DNA of 64,000 nt from assembly GCF_006494775.1 (NCBI RefSeq), contig NZ_CP041146.1, forward strand, positions 4,712,001 to 4,776,000. Reading direction: 5' to 3'. Both the position numbers and the translations under genes were made by a program. Source of the stretch: Nocardioides humi. Its GTDB lineage: Bacteria; Actinomycetota; Actinomycetes; Propionibacteriales; Nocardioidaceae. Each line of letters begins with the position of its first letter. The stretch's first letter is position 1. The notes under the pieces were generated by a model, which saw nothing but the letters and a program-made list of their open reading frames with translations, ran no database searches and was not told the origin of the DNA. Of this stretch, positions 7,111 to 16,970 are shown piece by piece.

Positions 7111-8157
7111 ATGTTTCAGCTGGGTGATCGCGTGGTCGGGGCCGGCGCACCGCCGCTGCTCGTCTCGGAGATCGGCGCCAACCACGACGGCGACGTCGAC
7201 AAGGCCGAGACCATGGTCCGGGCCCTCGCCGCCCAGGGCGCCGAGGCGATCAAGTTCCAGCTGTACACCGCCGAGGAGCTGGTGGCCGACGCCGACCGGC
7301 CCGTCACCTGGGGGCCGCCCGGCGGCGAGGTGACCGAGGCGATCGGGCCGATGTTCGACCGGCTGGCGCTGCCGCGTGAGGCGGTCCGCGACCTGATGCG
7401 GCTCGGCACCGAGCTGGGCATGATCTCCTTCGCCACGCCGTTCAGCGAGGACGGCATCGACTACCTCGAGCAGGTCGGCGTGCCGGGCTACAAGGTGGCC
7501 GCCTCCGACGTCGGGCACCTGCCGTTCCTGCGGCACATCGCGCAGACCGGCAAGCCGGTCATCCTCTCCCTCGGCAAGTGCACCCTCGGGGAGGCCGAGG
7601 AGGCGATCGACACCCTCCTCGCCCACGGCGCCTCCCAGCTCAGCGTGCTGCACTGCGTCGCGGAGTACCCCGCACCGATCGCGGACATGAACCTGCGCAC
7701 CATCCCGATGCTGCAGACGATGTACCCCGAGATGGCGGTCGGCCTCTCCGACCACTCGATCGGTACGACGTCCGCGGTGGCCGCCGTCGCGCTCGGCGCC
7801 TCGATCGTGGAGAAGCACGTCACCCTGTCGCCGCAGGACGTCGGCCCGGACCACTGGTTCAGCATGGCCATCGACGAGGTGGGCCCGCTCCAGCAGGCGA
7901 TGCACGACGCGCACGCGGCCCTCGGCGTCGCGCGCAAGCAGGTCACGCCCGGCGAGGTCGCCGAGCGTCGCACGGCCATCCGGTCGCTCGTCGTACGACG
8001 CCCGCTCAAGGCCGGCGACCGGCTCCGCGCCGATGACCTCAAGGCGGTCCGTCCCGGCACCGGGCTGCCGCCCCGCTACCTCGAGGTGGTCGACGGCATG
8101 GTGCTCACCCGCGACCTCGCGGCCGACACGCCCGTCACCTGGGACGCGTTCAGGTAG
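7111..8157 (+). CDS. pseI: Pseudaminic acid synthase (NeuB family)
   Basis: A 348-residue enzyme that condenses phosphoenolpyruvate with 2,4-diacetamido-2,4,6-trideoxy-L-altrose. The NeuB barrel shows VSEIGANHDGD, EAIKFQLYTAEE, ISFATPFSEDGIDYLE and VGLSDHSIG. The C-terminal SAF/antifreeze-like domain begins near ERRTAIRSLVVRR and ends in PVTWDAFR. Length fits the family. An ATG at 7111 follows GGAGGGCGG. It overlaps the convergent pseG gene by 8 bp. Confidence 0.9.
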   Translation: MFQLGDRVVGAGAPPLLVSEIGANHDGDVDKAETMVRALAAQGAEAIKFQLYTAEELVADADRPVTWGPPGGEVTEAIGPMFDRLALPREAVRDLMRLGTELGMISFATPFSEDGIDYLEQVGVPGYKVAASDVGHLPFLRHIAQTGKPVILSLGKCTLGEAEEAIDTLLAHGASQLSVLHCVAEYPAPIADMNLRTIPMLQTMYPEMAVGLSDHSIGTTSAVAAVALGASIVEKHVTLSPQDVGPDHWFSMAIDEVGPLQQAMHDAHAALGVARKQVTPGEVAERRTAIRSLVVRRPLKAGDRLRADDLKAVRPGTGLPPRYLEVVDGMVLTRDLAADTPVTWDAFR

Positions 8158-9196
8158 GCGCCGCCGCCAGCGCCTCGAGCGCGGCCGCCGCCCGGGCCCG
8201 CCCGGCCCCGTCGACCAGGCTCCGGCCGGCCTCGCGCATCCGCGCGCGCAGGCCGGCGTCCTCGAGCAGCGCGTCCAGCGCGGCGACGGCGGGCGTCGGG
8301 TCCTGTCGCAGGTCGTCCAGGAGGCCGAGCCCGGCGGCAAGCCCGGCGCCGGTGACCAGCTCGTAGCCCGCCACCTGGTTGTCCACCACGCACACGACCC
8401 CGGCGGCGCTGCCGATGCAGAAGAGCTCGACCAGCGAGGTCCCCGAGGCGCTGAGGACGACGTCCGCACGGGCGACGAGCGCCATCAGGGACGGCGGCGG
8501 CCCGATCACCTCGACCTGCTGTCCCGCCGCCCAGGCGACCCGGTCGAGGGCGTCCCTCGTCTCGGCCCGCGGCGCGACGAAGGTGGCCCGGCACGGCCGC
8601 CCGGTCCGGGCCAGGGCCTCGGCGACGACCGGGCCGGCGCCGAACGCGTCGGTCCCGCCGAAGTAGGCCACCACCCGCGGCCGGTCATCGGGTGGGTCAT
8701 CGGGCGGGTCATCGGCGTCGCGGGGGTCCGCCGAGCGCCAGGCCAGCACCTCGTCGCGGACCAGTGCGTACTCCGGCCCGGCGAGGACGGGCAGCCCGGG
8801 CGCGTAGTCGGCCGCGGAGACGCCGAGGTTCTGGTCGAGGTAGAGGTCGGCCGCCAGGCCGCGCCGGTCGCGGTCCACGATCGCGAGCACCGGCACGGCG
8901 AGCGCCCGCAGCTCCCGGCTCGTCGACGCCGGCAGGGCGTAGGAGTCGAGGACGACCGCGTCCGGGCCGAGGGCGGCCAGCACGGGCAGGACCGCGGCGG
9001 GCTCGCCGTCGTACGGCCGGACGTCGAACCCGCGCTCGCGCACCTGTCCCGCGGCCCAGGGCACGGCGTCGAAGTCGGCGACGAACGCGCACCGGCTCCC
9101 GCGGGCGGCGAGCTCCTCGGCGAGGGCGACGCAGCGCATGACGTGCCCGGTCCCGCGGGTCGGCCCGAGATCGCAGTAGAAGACGATCAGCGACAT
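8150..9196 (-). CDS. pseG: UDP-sugar hydrolase of the pseudaminate pathway
   Basis: A 348-residue GT-B-like hydrolase that removes UDP from the diacetamido sugar before PseI acts. It begins with FYCDLGPTRGTGHVMRC, the glycine-rich start with the His typical of PseG, and has AYFGGTDAFGAGP at the second domain and SASGTSLVELFCIG near the nucleotide site. The linker around residue 165 contains a short acidic repeat (DADDPPDDPPDD). ATG 9196 is used because the upstream in-frame residues look non-coding. It is divergent from pseB, 52 bp apart. Confidence 0.85.
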   Translation of the reverse strand: MSLIVFYCDLGPTRGTGHVMRCVALAEELAARGSRCAFVADFDAVPWAAGQVRERGFDVRPYDGEPAAVLPVLAALGPDAVVLDSYALPASTSRELRALAVPVLAIVDRDRRGLAADLYLDQNLGVSAADYAPGLPVLAGPEYALVRDEVLAWRSADPRDADDPPDDPPDDRPRVVAYFGGTDAFGAGPVVAEALARTGRPCRATFVAPRAETRDALDRVAWAAGQQVEVIGPPPSLMALVARADVVLSASGTSLVELFCIGSAAGVVCVVDNQVAGYELVTGAGLAAGLGLLDDLRQDPTPAVAALDALLEDAGLRARMREAGRSLVDGAGRARAAAALEALAAAPT

Positions 9197-9248
9197 CGCC
9201 GGGGTGCCGGTAGGGCCGCGAGCTGCACGGGATCTAGCATAGGCGTCC

Positions 9249-10238
9249 ATGTCCGAGCTCCAGAACGCGAACCTCCTGATCACGGGGGGCACGGGCTCCT
9301 TCGGCAAGGCGTTCATCCGGTACGCGCTCGACCACCTCGAGCCGGCCCGCCTGGTGATCTACTCGCGCGACGAGCTCAAGCAGTACGAGGTCCGTCAGCT
9401 CTTCGGCGACGACCCGCGGCTGCGCTGGTTCATCGGCGACATCCGCGACGAGCGGCGCCTGGTCCGCGCCATGCACGGCGTCACCCATGTGGTGCACGCG
9501 GCGGCGCTGAAGCAGGTCGACACCGCGGAGTACAACCCGTTCGAGTTCGTGAAGACCAACGTGCTGGGCAGCCAGAACGTCATCGAGGCCGCGATCGACG
9601 CGGGCGTGAAGAAGGTCGTGGCGCTCTCCACCGACAAGGCGTCGAGCCCGATCAACCTCTACGGCGCCACGAAGCTCACCGCCGACAAGCTCTTCATCTC
9701 GGGCAACCACTACGCCGCCGGCTACGACTCGCGGTTCGCCGTCGTCCGCTACGGCAACGTGATGGGCAGCCGCGGCTCGGTGATCCCGTTCTTCCGCCGT
9801 CTCGCGGCCGAGGGGCGTCCGCTGCCGATCACCGACCTGCGCTGCACCCGCTTCTTCATCACGCTCGAGGCCGCCGTGCGCATGGTCGTCGACACCTTCG
9901 ACCTGATGCACGGCGGCGAGCTGCTCGTGCCCCGCATCCCGTCGATGAAGGTCACCGACCTCGCGCACGCGATCGCCCCGGGCGCGGAGCTCGTCGACGT
10001 CGGCCTGCGGCCGGGGGAGAAGCTCCACGAGGAGATGATCAGCCCGGAGGAGGGCCGCCGGGCCGTGGTCGTCCAGGACGGCAAGTACTTCATCATCCAG
10101 CCGGACCTCGCGACGTGGGGCTACGAGCAGCCCGCGGGCGCGGTGCCGGTGCCGCCGGACTTCGCCTACCGGTCGAACACCAACGACCAGTGGTACACCG
10201 CCGAGGAGCTCGCCGGCCTGCTCGACCTGGAGTCCTGA
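9249..10238 (+). CDS. pseB: UDP-N-acetylglucosamine 4,6-dehydratase (inverting)
   Basis: A 329-residue short-chain dehydrogenase/reductase that performs the first pathway step, 4,6-dehydration with C5 epimerisation of UDP-GlcNAc. It has ITGGTGSFGKAF for NADP binding, HAAALKQVDTAEYNP, the catalytic ALSTDKASSPINLYGATK with the Lys-containing triad typical of PseB/FlaA1, and VRYGNVMGSRGS. The stop codon shares a base with the pseC start (TGATG), so the two are translationally coupled. Confidence 0.93.
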   Translation: MSELQNANLLITGGTGSFGKAFIRYALDHLEPARLVIYSRDELKQYEVRQLFGDDPRLRWFIGDIRDERRLVRAMHGVTHVVHAAALKQVDTAEYNPFEFVKTNVLGSQNVIEAAIDAGVKKVVALSTDKASSPINLYGATKLTADKLFISGNHYAAGYDSRFAVVRYGNVMGSRGSVIPFFRRLAAEGRPLPITDLRCTRFFITLEAAVRMVVDTFDLMHGGELLVPRIPSMKVTDLAHAIAPGAELVDVGLRPGEKLHEEMISPEEGRRAVVVQDGKYFIIQPDLATWGYEQPAGAVPVPPDFAYRSNTNDQWYTAEELAGLLDLES

Positions 10239-11362
10239 TGTTCCCCTACGGACGGCAGTCCATCTCCGAGGAGGACGTCGAGGCCGTCGCCGAGGTGCTG
10301 CGGGGCGACTGGCTGACGACGGGGCCCCTCGTCACCGAGCTCGAGCGGGCGATCGGCGAGCTCGCCGGCGGGCACCGGGCGGTCTCCGCGACGTCCGGGA
10401 CCGCGGCCCTCCACATGGCGTACGCCGCCGCCGGGGCCGGTCCCGGCACCGAGGTGGTCTGCCCGCCGATGACCTTCGTCGCCTCCGCGTCGTCGGCCTC
10501 GATCCTCGGCGCGACCCTCGTCTTCGCCGACGTCGACCGCGAGACCGGGCTGATCGACCCGGGCGCCGTCGAGGCGGCCGTCGGTCCGCGGACCCGGGTG
10601 GTCACCGCCGTCGACTACGCCGGCCAGCCCGCCGACTACGACGCGCTGCAGCCGCTGGCCGACGCCGCCGGGGCGCTCACCCTCGCCGACGCCGCCCACT
10701 CGGTCGGGGGCACCTCCCTCGGCCGTCCGGTCGGGGACCTGGCCGACATCACCACCCTGTCCTTCTTCCCGACCAAGAACATGACGACGGGCGAGGGCGG
10801 GGCCGCGGTCTTCAAGGACGGCGACCTCGCCCAGCGCGCCCACGAGTTCCACTTCATCGGGCTGGTCCGCGACCCTGCGCGGTTCCGGATCACCGACGAG
10901 GGCCCGTGGCACCAGGAGGTCCACGAGCTCGGCCTCAACTACCGGCTGACCGACATCGCCTGCGCGCTGGGCCTCTCCCAGCTGCGGCGGCTCGGCGCGT
11001 TCAAGCGCCGGCGGGCCGAGATCGTCGCGCGGTACGACGCCGCACTGGCCGGGATGGACGGCGTGAGCACGCTCGGCCGCCGCGAGGGCGTCGACCCGAC
11101 CTGGCACCTCTACGTCGCGCGGATCCTCGACGGCCGGCGCCGCGAGGTGTTCGAGGCGATGCGGGCCGCGGGCATCGGCGTCCAGGTCAACTACATCCCG
11201 GTCTACTGGCACCCGGTCTACGCCGATCTCGGCTACCGGCGCGGGCTGTGCCCCAACGCCGAGGCGTTCTACGCGGAGCAGCTGTCGCTACCGCTGTTTC
11301 CCGCGATGACCGACGACGACGTCGACCGCGTGGTGGAGGCGCTCGCGGACGCTCTGGCGTGA
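10238..11362 (+). CDS. pseC: PLP-dependent aminotransferase of the pseudaminate pathway
   Basis: A 374-residue DegT/DnrJ/EryC1-family enzyme that transaminates the 4-keto sugar made by PseB. Landmarks are GDWLTTGPLV near the start, TSGTAALHMAYAA, ADAAHSVGG, and SFFPTKNMTTGEGG containing the PLP-binding Lys. NYRLTDIACALGLSQL and YIPVYWHPVY close the substrate site. Coupled to pseB. Its last 75 bp overlap the convergent gene on the other strand. Confidence 0.92.
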   Translation: MFPYGRQSISEEDVEAVAEVLRGDWLTTGPLVTELERAIGELAGGHRAVSATSGTAALHMAYAAAGAGPGTEVVCPPMTFVASASSASILGATLVFADVDRETGLIDPGAVEAAVGPRTRVVTAVDYAGQPADYDALQPLADAAGALTLADAAHSVGGTSLGRPVGDLADITTLSFFPTKNMTTGEGGAAVFKDGDLAQRAHEFHFIGLVRDPARFRITDEGPWHQEVHELGLNYRLTDIACALGLSQLRRLGAFKRRRAEIVARYDAALAGMDGVSTLGRREGVDPTWHLYVARILDGRRREVFEAMRAAGIGVQVNYIPVYWHPVYADLGYRRGLCPNAEAFYAEQLSLPLFPAMTDDDVDRVVEALADALA

Positions 11363-13530: not shown

Positions 13531-13638
13531 GCGCGGAGACTATCCACGGCCCCCAGTGCGTTCAACATGTGGACGTCCATCTCGGAATCCGGGACCCCGA
13601 TTGAGGGCAATCACCGGATAGCCCCTAGGCTGTGCGTG

Positions 13639-13781
13639 CTCATCCAGAGGGACTGAGGGAACGGCCCTGAGAAGTCCCGGCAACCGCCGCGAACTCCCGT
13701 CGTGCCACCTGCGTGCAGGGGTCGGCGTCGCGGAAACGGTGCCAAATCCGACCCGGGCGAGAGCCGCGCGGGACAGATGAG
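13639..13781 (+). promoter_or_regulatory. SAM-I (S-box) riboswitch upstream of thrC
   Basis: The leader shows the SAM-I consensus in order: outer stem CTCATC (13639-13644) pairing with GATGAG (13776-13781), then GAGGGACTGAGGGAACGGCCC, the GAAGTCCCGGCAACC segment, GGTGCCAAATCCGACCC, and the closing GACAGATGAG. The ribosome-binding site GAAGGAGG follows directly, so ligand binding may mask translation initiation as well as affect transcription. S-adenosylmethionine would repress thrC and the sulfur carrier behind it, which ties this unit to methionine supply. Confidence 0.92.
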
Positions 13782-13793
13782 AAGGAGGAATCC

Positions 13794-15077
13794 ATGAGCG
13801 CCGTTGTGACCGAGTCCGAGACGACGACCACGACCCGGCCGGGGCTGCGCGAGGGCGCGTTCGGCAACGCCACCGCCCTCTCCTGTCGCGAGTGCGGCCA
13901 CCAGGTCGCCCTGGGCCCGTTCTACGCGTGTCCGGAGTGCTTCGGTCCGTTGGAGATCTCCTACGCCTTCCCGGCCGTGACCCGCGAGGAGATCGAGGCC
14001 GGCCCCCGCAACATCTGGCGCTACAAGGCGCTGCTGCCGGTCCCGACCGACATCGAGACCAGCCCCAACACCGAGCCCGGCTTCACCCGCCTGCTCGAGG
14101 CGAGGAACCTCGCCGCCGAGCTCGGCATCGCCAAGCTCTGGGTCAAGGACGACTCGACCAACCCCACGAACTCCTTCAAGGACCGCGTCGTCGCCTGCGC
14201 GCTGAGCGCCGCCCGCGAGCTGGGCGCGACGACCTTCGCCTGCCCCTCGACCGGCAACCTCGCCAACGCCGTGGCCGCGGCCGGCGCCCGCGCCGGGATC
14301 AAGACGGTCGTCTTCATCCCGAGCAACCTGGAGACGCCGAAGCAGGTCAACTCCGCGATCTTCACCGAGAACCTCGTCGCCGTCGACGGCAACTACGACG
14401 ACGTCAACAAGCTCGCCTCCGAGATCGCCGGCGAGGAGGAGGGCTGGGCGTTCGTCAACGTCAACGTGCGGCCCTACTACGCCGAGGGGTCCAAGACCCT
14501 GGGCTACGAGATCGCCGAGCAGCTCGGCTGGCGGCTGCCCGACCAGATCGTGATCCCGGTCGCCTCCGGCTCCCAGCTCACCAAGGTCGACAAGGCCTTC
14601 CAGGAGCTGATCAAGCTCGGCCTGGTCGAGGACAAGCCCTACCGGGTCTTCGGGGCCCAGGCCGAGGGCTGCGGCCCGGTCGCGACCGCCTACAAGGCCG
14701 GCGTCGACGCGATCCGCCCGGTCAAGCCGGACACCATCGCCAAGAGCCTGGCCATCGGCAACCCCGCCGACGGCATCTACGTCCTCGACATCGCCCGTCG
14801 CACCGGCGGCGCCGTCGAGGAGGTCACCGACGAGGAGATCCGCGCCGGCATCGTGCTGCTCGCCCGCACCGAGGGCATCTTCACCGAGACCGCCGGCGGC
14901 ACGACGCTCGCCGTCACCAAGAAGCTGGTCGAGTCCGGCCAGCTCGACCCGAGCCTCGAGACCGTTGTCATCAACACCGGCCACGGCCTGAAGACCCTCG
15001 ACGCGGTCTCCGGCCAGGTCGGCGCCGCGGCCACCATCCCTCCGACCTACAGCGCCTTCAAGGCGACCGGCCTCTGA
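13794..15077 (+). CDS. thrC: Threonine synthase (or related phosphohomoserine-acting PLP enzyme)
   Basis: A 427-residue fold-type II PLP enzyme. The N-terminus carries a rubredoxin-like zinc knuckle (CRECGHQVALGPFYACPEC), seen in the actinobacterial/archaeal ThrC class. PLP Lys lies in NPTNSFKDRVV, and the phosphate loop is near CPSTGNLANAVAAAG. Known family reaction: O-phosphohomoserine to threonine. The SAM riboswitch in front and the coupled sulfur-carrier gene behind suggest a possible sulfhydrylase role in homocysteine formation instead. ATG 13794 is set by GGAGG eight bases upstream. Confidence 0.88.
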   Translation: MSAVVTESETTTTTRPGLREGAFGNATALSCRECGHQVALGPFYACPECFGPLEISYAFPAVTREEIEAGPRNIWRYKALLPVPTDIETSPNTEPGFTRLLEARNLAAELGIAKLWVKDDSTNPTNSFKDRVVACALSAARELGATTFACPSTGNLANAVAAAGARAGIKTVVFIPSNLETPKQVNSAIFTENLVAVDGNYDDVNKLASEIAGEEEGWAFVNVNVRPYYAEGSKTLGYEIAEQLGWRLPDQIVIPVASGSQLTKVDKAFQELIKLGLVEDKPYRVFGAQAEGCGPVATAYKAGVDAIRPVKPDTIAKSLAIGNPADGIYVLDIARRTGGAVEEVTDEEIRAGIVLLARTEGIFTETAGGTTLAVTKKLVESGQLDPSLETVVINTGHGLKTLDAVSGQVGAAATIPPTYSAFKATGL

Positions 15078-15118
15078 GCCCCACCCACCAGCAAGAACCC
15101 CAGGCAGAAGGAACCTCC

Positions 15119-15397
15119 ATGGCAGTCAGCGTCCGGATCCCCACCATCCTCCGCACCTACACCGGCGGCGACTCCGAGGTGAGCGCCACCGGCGCCACCC
15201 TGGCGGAGATCCTCGACGACCTCGACGCCAACTACTCCGGCATCAAGGGCCGGATCCTCGACGAGGACGGCAAGCTGCGCCGCTTCGTCAACGTCTACGT
15301 CAACAACGACGACGTGCGCTTCGAGCAGGAGCTCGCCACGCCCACCCCCGACGGCGCCGAGGTCTCGGTGATCCCCGCGGTCGCCGGCGGCTGCTGA
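15119..15397 (+). CDS. MoaD/ThiS-type sulfur carrier protein, CysO-like
   Basis: A 92-residue ubiquitin-fold protein close in pattern to mycobacterial CysO (SVRIPTILRTYTGG, DLDANYSGIKGRI, KLRRFVNVYVNNDDVRF). Sulfur carriers of this family are thiocarboxylated at a C-terminal Gly-Gly. Here the protein ends AVAGGC, so one Cys follows the diglycine and would have to be removed, for instance by a JAMM/Mec-type peptidase, before activation. It starts 41 bp after thrC with ribosome-binding site AGAAGGAAC and shares the SAM riboswitch. Confidence 0.85.
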   Translation: MAVSVRIPTILRTYTGGDSEVSATGATLAEILDDLDANYSGIKGRILDEDGKLRRFVNVYVNNDDVRFEQELATPTPDGAEVSVIPAVAGGC

Positions 15398-15398
15398 G

Positions 15399-16604
15399 TC
15401 ATCCCCGCCGCTCGCGCAGGTGGGCGGCCTCGGCCTCGTTCCCGCACTGCGCCAGCGCGGTGTCGTAGGCCAGCCGCGCCTCCTCGGGCCGGCCCAGCCG
15501 GGCCAGCAGCTCCGCGCGTACGGCGGGCAGCCGGTGCCCCGGCAGCGCGACGCCGTCGAGCGCGGCCAGCCCGGCCGCCGGCCCGTCCCGCTCGGCGATC
15601 GCGACCGCCCGGTTGAGGCGCACGACCGGCGACTCGCGCAGGGCCAGCAGCTCGTCGTACCGGTCGACGATGCGGTCCCAGCGGGTCTCGCCGGCGGTGA
15701 CGGCGATGGCGTGCTCGGCGGCGATCAGCGCCTGGAGCAGGTACGGCGCCGGGGGCGCGGCGACCAGCGGGCGCAGCAGGTCGAGCGCCTCGAGCGCCTC
15801 GTCGTGGTGCCAGCGGGTGCGGTCCTGGTCGGGCAGCAGCACCAGCCGGCCGTCGACCGCGCGGGCGTCGCGGCGGGCGTGCTGGAGGACCATCAGGGCG
15901 AGCAGGGCGTCCAGCTCGTCGTACCTCTCCGGCAGCACGGAGCGCAGCACCCGCACCAGCCGCACCGCCTCGCCGGCCACGTCGGCGCGGAGCACGTCGG
16001 CGCCCGATCCGGGCGCGTACCCGCTGGTGAACGCCAGGTAGGCCACGTCGGCGACGGCGTCGACCCGGGCGCCCAGCTCCCCCGGAGGAGGTACGACGAA
16101 GGCCGCGCCCGCCAGCCGACGGCGGGCCCGGGTCAGCCGGGCCGCCATGGTCGCGGTCGGCACCAGGAACAGGCGCGCGACGTCCTCCGTCGCGACGCCG
16201 AGCACCAGACGCAGGGTGAGCGCGGCCGACGCCTCGCGGGACAGCGACGGATGGGCGCACAGGAGCACCAGGCGCAGCCGCTCGTCCATCACGGCCTCTC
16301 CTTCCGGCGGCGCGGCCAGCATCCGCTGCGCCTGCTGCTGCAGGGACGCCTCCACCTCCAGCAGCGGCACCTTCCGGGCCGCGACCGCCTCCGTGCGCAG
16401 CGCGTCGGTGATCCGGCGGCGGGCCGTGGTCAGCAGCCAGCCCTGCGGGTTCGCCGGAGCGCCGGTCTCCGGCCAGGTGCGGGCGGCCGCCTCGAACGCG
16501 TCCGCCAGGCCGTCCTCGGCGAGGTCGACCCGGCGGCACCACGCGGCGAGCAGGGCCAGCAGCCGGCCCCACTCGTCGCGCAGGACGCGCTCGAGCCGCT
16601 CCAC
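15399..16604 (-). CDS. ECF sigma factor, ECF42-like with C-terminal extension
   Basis: A 401-residue sigma factor. Region 2 lies in about residues 1-80 (DAFEAAARTWPETGAPANPQGWL is typical of this group) and region 4 in about 110-165 (TLRLVLGVATEDVARLFLVPTATMAARLTRARRRL). The long C-terminal extension (about 190-400) is the TPR-like domain of ECF42 proteins, with YLAFTSGYAPG and PYLLQALIAAEHA. ECF42 genes are usually linked to a YCII/DGPF gene rather than an anti-sigma factor, as here. It converges on the sulfur-carrier gene with a one-base gap. Confidence 0.9.
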   Translation of the reverse strand: MERLERVLRDEWGRLLALLAAWCRRVDLAEDGLADAFEAAARTWPETGAPANPQGWLLTTARRRITDALRTEAVAARKVPLLEVEASLQQQAQRMLAAPPEGEAVMDERLRLVLLCAHPSLSREASAALTLRLVLGVATEDVARLFLVPTATMAARLTRARRRLAGAAFVVPPPGELGARVDAVADVAYLAFTSGYAPGSGADVLRADVAGEAVRLVRVLRSVLPERYDELDALLALMVLQHARRDARAVDGRLVLLPDQDRTRWHHDEALEALDLLRPLVAAPPAPYLLQALIAAEHAIAVTAGETRWDRIVDRYDELLALRESPVVRLNRAVAIAERDGPAAGLAALDGVALPGHRLPAVRAELLARLGRPEEARLAYDTALAQCGNEAEAAHLRERRG

Positions 16605-16613
16605 TGCGGGGGG

Positions 16614-16970
16614 CTACTCCGGGGCCGCCAGGCAGGCGCGCACCTCGACCGTGTCGCCGGTGCGGGCCAGGATCGCGCAGAGCTCCAGCAGGTCGTCGAG
16701 GTCGTCGCTCTCGACGACGTAGAAGCCGCCGAGCTGCTCGACCGACTCGACGTACGGGCCCTCGGTCAGGACGGTCCCGTCGCCGCTGGGCCGCACGACC
16801 CGGGCGGTGCGCGAGCTGTCCAGCTGCGCACCGCCGGTGATCCGGTGGCCGCGCTCCTCCAGCAGCCGGCTGAACTCGCCGTGCTGGTCGTACATCGCGG
16901 CCTGCTCCGCGGGGCTCGCTGCCTCCCAGGCCTTCTCGTCGCCGGTCAGCAGTACGACGTACTCGGTCAT
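16614..16970 (-). CDS. YCII-related (DGPF) domain protein, partner of the ECF42 sigma factor
   Basis: A 118-residue YCII-family protein: MTEYVVLLTGDEKAWEAASP at the start, then GGAQLDSSRTARVV, VLTEGPYVESVEQLGGFYVVE (the DGPF-type motif in variant form) and a helical end. These proteins are conserved beside ECF42 sigma genes and are thought to be targets or modulators. It is 9 bp upstream of the sigma gene on the same strand, so the two form an operon. The exact function is unknown. Confidence 0.87.
   Translation of the reverse strand: MTEYVVLLTGDEKAWEAASPAEQAAMYDQHGEFSRLLEERGHRITGGAQLDSSRTARVVRPSGDGTVLTEGPYVESVEQLGGFYVVESDDLDDLLELCAILARTGDTVEVRACLAAPE

Follow-up and report, generated by a model that had tools for sequence, protein, structure and literature searches.

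A SAM-I riboswitch, metM and metO form one unit

The window analyzed here, a stretch of 64,000 nucleotides from the single-contig, 6.22-Mb genome of Nocardioides humi, carries on its + strand a SAM-I (S-box) riboswitch aptamer at 13637..13783, followed by two genes. The aptamer is complete, spanning model positions 1–108 of RF00162 (score 70.9 bits, gathering score 44.4, E 1.4e-14), and a Shine-Dalgarno (SD) sequence, GGAGGA, is read at 13784..13789 (+), immediately downstream of the 3′ strand of the P1 helix. The first gene, metM (13794..15077, +), encodes a ThrC-family PLP enzyme of 427 aa, assigned by profile matches, alignment and tree. The second, metO (15119..15397, +), encodes a ThiS/MoaD-like sulfur carrier of 92 aa with a Gly-Gly-Cys C-terminus, assigned by its Pfam ThiS match and tree. 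Riboswitch, metM and metO form one unit, with 41 bases between the two genes. The original prediction, which had placed a SAM-I element before a threonine synthase homolog and a CysO-like carrier, was borne out by the RF00162, PALP/TIGR00260 and ThiS matches, and its coordinates were correct. From sequence comparison we are confident that the locus is a Nocardioides-type metM-metO operon and a member of the MetM/MetO family. Its closest named relatives are mostly Nocardioides, at no more than 90% identity, very near genomes possibly being omitted from this comparison.

The next frame (15399–16604), convergent with metO, encodes a sigma-70-type factor with DUF6596 and is adjoined by a YCII-domain protein (16614–16970, −). 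Upstream, window positions 8150–11362 hold frames that resemble, by eye, pseudaminic-acid-type sugar genes: PseB-like (9249–10238), a PseC-like aminotransferase within 8033–11362, and PseG-like (8150–9316, −).

To place the locus among relatives, we used the named loci (the best 80 of 536 confirmed stretches) and an even sample of 128 genomes of the class, requested at a completeness of 90% or more. MetM, scored at ≥57% identity, is present in 93 of the 128; a 94th genome (G007) was dropped, its match being 39%. RF00162 precedes metM in 80/80 named loci and lies just upstream of metM, above the gathering score, in 93/93 MetM genomes. A search of the N. humi genome at E ≤ 0.001 gives no RF00162 match besides the element upstream of metM.

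GGAGGA starts at the base after the aptamer end, and we count ten bases between the aptamer and the ATG at 13794. Of 81 loci (the 80 named plus the window), 77 have their start codon 7–19 bases past the aptamer end; in the other 4, the start as picked lies 6 bases ahead of that end. A permissive motif places the beginning of an SD-like stretch no more than 12 nt from the aptamer end in 63/81 loci, and it found none in the remaining 18. Given the spacing of start codon and SD after the aptamer, control of translation through P1 closure is likely in the window, and the SD beside P1 is likely a translational expression platform. At high SAM, P1 would close and metM translation would be blocked. 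The 174-nt leader folds weakly better than its shuffles (z −1.95; 8/200 shuffles fold equally well), and we dropped any mechanism based on this single fold. In the computed fold of window positions 13637–13810, the partner of the 5′ P1 strand is the start-codon region and not the other strand of P1, maybe by chance.

The weakest SAM-I elements before metM occur in one genus (G085, G095 and G115; 46.8–49.1 bits against the gathering score of 44.4), which also has MetX and MetY; these aptamers are perhaps decaying. Three MetM-negative genomes (G002, G021 and G056) have a SAM-I match about 0.1–3.5 kb from metY, on the opposite strand in G021 and below the gathering score in G002.

MetM is separate from the housekeeping threonine synthase

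MetM matches PALP at 232 bits and TIGR00260 (thrC) at 258.4 bits, above the cut-off of 167.1; against PRK08197 it scores 288.8 bits, under the cut-off of 303. Alignment identifies Lys129 as the Schiff-base lysine, and the solved structures nearest by sequence are 6cgq (E 5e-50), 2zsj, 1uim and 2d1f. Among the best 120 of 7998 homologs, those bearing a name are called threonine synthase, reach up to 93% identity and come nearly all from Nocardioides or kin; MetM of Streptomyces albulus was not seen among these 120.

The score above the thrC cut-off and the names of these best 120 relatives are what an ordinary second threonine synthase, under SAM control by chance, would give. The genome has a separate candidate for that role. 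Another thrC, whose presence the original prediction had raised as a check, was found at 448236–449213 of the genome, between thrB (TIGR00191, 214 bits) and a frame called homoserine-dehydrogenase-like from its translation; its product is 34% identical to that of metM, and its presence favors the homocysteine reading. At least two thrC-family matches occur in all 93 MetM genomes, so that each has another one besides MetM. The 35 MetM-negative genomes have one such match in 31 cases and two in 4 (G003, G007, G071 and G122), which shows that a thrC duplicate alone does not imply MetM.

In a tree computed by a quick method, with SH-aLRT as the only support measure, the 93 MetM sequences and the 20 ThrC sequences are each set off by a supported branch (SH-aLRT 98 and 99); a further homolog, THIRD_G008, sits on a very long branch. 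MetM has an N-terminal extension with four cysteines (C31, C34, C46 and C49, as CxxC...CxxC) that is absent from the 20 ThrC in the alignment. Relative to Thermus thermophilus ThrC, T88, S155, R160 and N188 are not kept and are replaced by L, N, Y and S, respectively; N157 is changed to R and Q164 to S, and K61 is kept. Some of these six changed positions are presumably substrate-binding positions of ThrC, and the changes might alter the binding of O-phosphohomoserine or abolish it. MetM and ThrC thus share the family, the PLP lysine and the expected substrate, O-phosphohomoserine, but differ in clade, CxxC pairs, active-site residues and SAM control.

A homolog from Microcystis, 51.6% identical to S. 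albulus MetM and located beside a MetO-like gene, is reported to act both as a threonine synthase and as a threonine deaminase and to give only an unidentified peak near methionine (PMC12172450). These activities caution against blanket transfer of function and would suit a MetM that makes threonine, or one that mainly deaminates it. The Microcystis locus, according to the same paper (PMC12172450), lacks a SAM riboswitch, whereas MetM is linked to SAM and to MetX absence, and N. humi has an IlvA-like gene (L003); we therefore consider it extremely improbable that MetM is chiefly a threonine deaminase. An ordinary threonine synthase is also very unlikely and was rejected because the genome has a second thrC, MetM and ThrC form separate clades, active-site residues differ and MetM is over-represented where MetX is absent (see below); SAM-I in 93/93 genomes points the same way. 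The common annotation should be corrected accordingly: these “threonine synthase” relatives make up a separate SAM-controlled clade, found in 93/128 genomes of the class.

MetO is distinct from CysO and probably needs trimming

MetO matches Pfam ThiS at 61.6 bits and ends in ...PAVAGGC. A carrier gene follows metM in 65/80 named loci (the best 80 of 536); among the other 15, L092 ends inside metM. Within the class, MetM of G004 and G060 is cut by contig ends, which leaves 91 assessable loci, and MetO lies directly downstream of metM in 68 of them, sometimes overlapping the metM stop.

CysO and CysM are a ubiquitin-like carrier and a fold-type II PLP enzyme, the same two kinds of protein as MetO and MetM. 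The carrier had been described as CysO-like in the original prediction, and in sequence this holds: MetO is 58% identical to the CysO of the same genome, and the structure nearest to it is 3dwg chain C, which we take to be CysO. It is nevertheless separate from that CysO. The genome has a complete mec-cysO-cysM cluster at about 1148.0–1149.9 kb, with CysO at 1148986–1149255, and metO adjoins metM behind the SAM riboswitch instead of clustering with cysM and mec. In the carrier tree, built on only 91 columns and leaving out CysO_G019, MetO (68 sequences) and CysO (9) form separate groups with a support of 99. It is thus highly improbable that MetO serves cysteine synthesis as another CysO and sits beside MetM incidentally; the carrier tree and the presence of a cysteine cluster elsewhere led us to reject this role.

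Both carriers of the genome extend past Gly-Gly, MetO by C and CysO by AR, so that both apparently have to lose these residues before activation and sulfur loading. MetO tails in the class set end in GG in 51/68 cases, GGC in 15, GGA in 1 and GGCA in 1; those of the named set end in GG in 53/65 and otherwise in 11, with one open. The genome has one Prok-JAB (JAMM) match, which is Mec of the cysteine cluster, and Mec probably trims the terminal Cys of MetO.

The route that we propose would run at low SAM. A JAMM peptidase, for example Mec, would probably remove the terminal Cys; activation of the trimmed carrier and its sulfuration would then yield a thiocarboxylate at the C-terminus. Carrier activation in the MetM/MetO pathway requires an E1-like (MoeZ/MoeB-type) enzyme. 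MetM would bind O-phosphohomoserine made by ThrB on PLP-Lys129, eliminate phosphate and take the carrier sulfur at the gamma carbon, after which hydrolysis would free homocysteine for methionine.

Relation to known pathways

In Streptomyces, MetM (Hasebe et al. 2024) converts O-phosphohomoserine to homocysteine, metO is a gene of the sulfur-carrier family, a SAM riboswitch precedes metM, and methionine auxotrophy is thereby prevented in S. albulus, as summarized in PMC12172450. The window resembles the S. albulus system, as described there, in the ThrC-like PLP enzyme, the carrier-family metO and the upstream SAM riboswitch. It differs in keeping metX, metY and metB; its MetO ends in GGC, a feature stated for the window and not from comparison with the S. 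albulus sequences. Two Streptomyces loci (L087 and L095, both outside the MetM/ThrC tree) have the same gene order and 65–66% identity to the window MetM. Judged via these two loci and not via the S. albulus protein, the window MetM appears orthologous to Streptomyces MetM. Thiocarboxylated MetO is reportedly the sulfur donor, a finding ascribed to Hasebe et al. 2024 (AEM 90:e01247-24).

The original prediction had O-phosphohomoserine and carrier sulfur meeting on the ThrC homolog to yield homocysteine, which in substance matches Streptomyces MetM/MetO and is predicted for the window as well. The idea was right but already in print: the implied novelty of an actinobacterial ThrC route does not hold, since this route was published for S. 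albulus in 2024 (Hasebe et al.). The pathway is known from Streptomyces, and the window adds one more member. Judging by its sequence, the ThrC-labeled gene with its carrier and SAM switch is very probably a second homocysteine route of N. humi.

A protein thiocarboxylate is the sulfur donor for an amino acid in the CysO-type route, and Wolinella succinogenes uses one for methionine, according to PMC6225789. The CysO/CysM/Mec system of the Mycobacterium tuberculosis type thus shares with the window a protein-thiocarboxylate sulfur donor (predicted in the window), although MetO and CysO fall in separate clades. The acceptor in Wolinella is a MetY-type sulfhydrylase acting on O-acetylhomoserine, with the carrier gene beside it, whereas the acceptor in the window is a ThrC homolog. 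Adjacency of carrier and metY of the Wolinella type was not found in N. humi, where metY (5168491–5169753 of the genome) lies about 0.44 Mb from metM, beside metX (5169819–5170853).

MetM is over-represented in genomes without MetX

The genome of N. humi also has metB, encoding cystathionine gamma-synthase (PRK07811, 657 bits). With metX, metY and metB present, the operon is not the sole route to homocysteine in this genome, and MetM/MetO would work alongside them.

Across the class we counted MetX at E ≤ 1e-50 and MetY at E 1e-110. No MetX match passes the TIGR01392 cut-off in the 128 genomes or in 14 controls, so that MetX presence rests on the E-value threshold; MetX of N. humi passes PRK00175 (447 against 331 bits). 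MetX is present in 72/128 genomes. MetX-less genomes hold MetM in 52 of 56 cases and genomes with MetX in 41 of 72, and the cross-table (both 41, MetM only 52, MetX only 31, neither 4) gives a Fisher p of 3e-6 that ignores kinship. Of the 52 genomes with MetM and without MetX, 51 also lack a MetY match. Many of the 52 are drafts, in which absence is weaker than in complete genomes; G016, G054, G082 and G117 are single contigs. On the MetM tree the MetX state changes at least 22 times, which is of some help without amounting to a formal test of the association. As the search covered MetX and MetY, the lack of both does not mean that a genome lacks every other route, such as one through MetA (homoserine O-succinyltransferase) or the DUF39-type route. 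Metabolic models that predict methionine auxotrophy for MetX-less actinobacteria would probably err on those MetM genomes (52 of 93) that have no MetX match.

Within the window's genus (7 genomes), four have both routes, two only MetM/MetO and one only MetX/MetY. In this last genome (G079) no riboswitch match was found, and its single carrier match is at CysO-like identity (57%). Two interchangeable routes to one product would leave such a pattern, and the genus is a natural test of why a cell keeps two homocysteine routes.

MetM loci without MetO

MetO is not found behind metM in 23 of the 91 assessable loci, and the carrier is therefore not universal. Fifteen of these loci are in genomes with MetX and MetY and eight in genomes with neither (G008, G015, G019, G029, G044, G046, G072 and G082; also L203–L209). 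G082 is a single contig, and the other seven are drafts of 130–430 contigs, 93–100% complete. MetO is missing behind metM in several actinobacterial lineages, with no fewer than 4 changes of its state on the MetM tree, and independent pairs (15 on supported branches, with MetO differing in about one) gave no link between MetO loss and MetX presence.

These loci bear on whether MetM is a homocysteine synthase that works with free sulfide or any carrier, MetO being accessory or meant for another enzyme. Such an enzyme could dispense with MetO, as in the 23 loci, eight of them in genomes without MetX and MetY matches. MetM of these eight genomes keeps all 17 key residues checked, as do 90/91 assessable MetM overall; of 152 positions with 97% conservation among MetO-bearing MetM, 6 drop to 60% or less in MetO-less ones. 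Against this stand the position of MetO directly behind metM, at times overlapping its stop, in 68/91 loci, and the role of MetO as sulfur donor reported in Streptomyces. We regard this alternative as unlikely and retain MetO as the predicted sulfur donor of MetM in the window.

For the eight genomes lacking MetO, MetX and MetY, the simplest reading is that the CysO thiocarboxylate, or sulfide, serves MetM. Each has a single carrier match at E 1e-6; in seven, the MetO search led to CysO of a mec-cysO-cysM cluster, and the match of G015 fell outside this check. CysO as the only close carrier found in the seven suggests one carrier for cysteine and homocysteine. Our tentative proposal, which we hold to be possible though doubtful, is that the need of MetM for MetO is not constant and that CysO in these lineages feeds both cysteine and homocysteine synthesis. 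If true, the two amino acids would be tied to one thiocarboxylate pool, and the MetO-less lineages raise the question whether cysteine and methionine synthesis share a carrier. No title from an aimed literature search, which left out most subscription papers, deals with a ThrC-like homocysteine synthase supplied by CysO.

In G008, G029 and G044, a short frame that looks by eye like a cold-shock protein lies 159–200 bases past metM. Among the frames listed for the 23 MetO-less loci, six look like GroEL.
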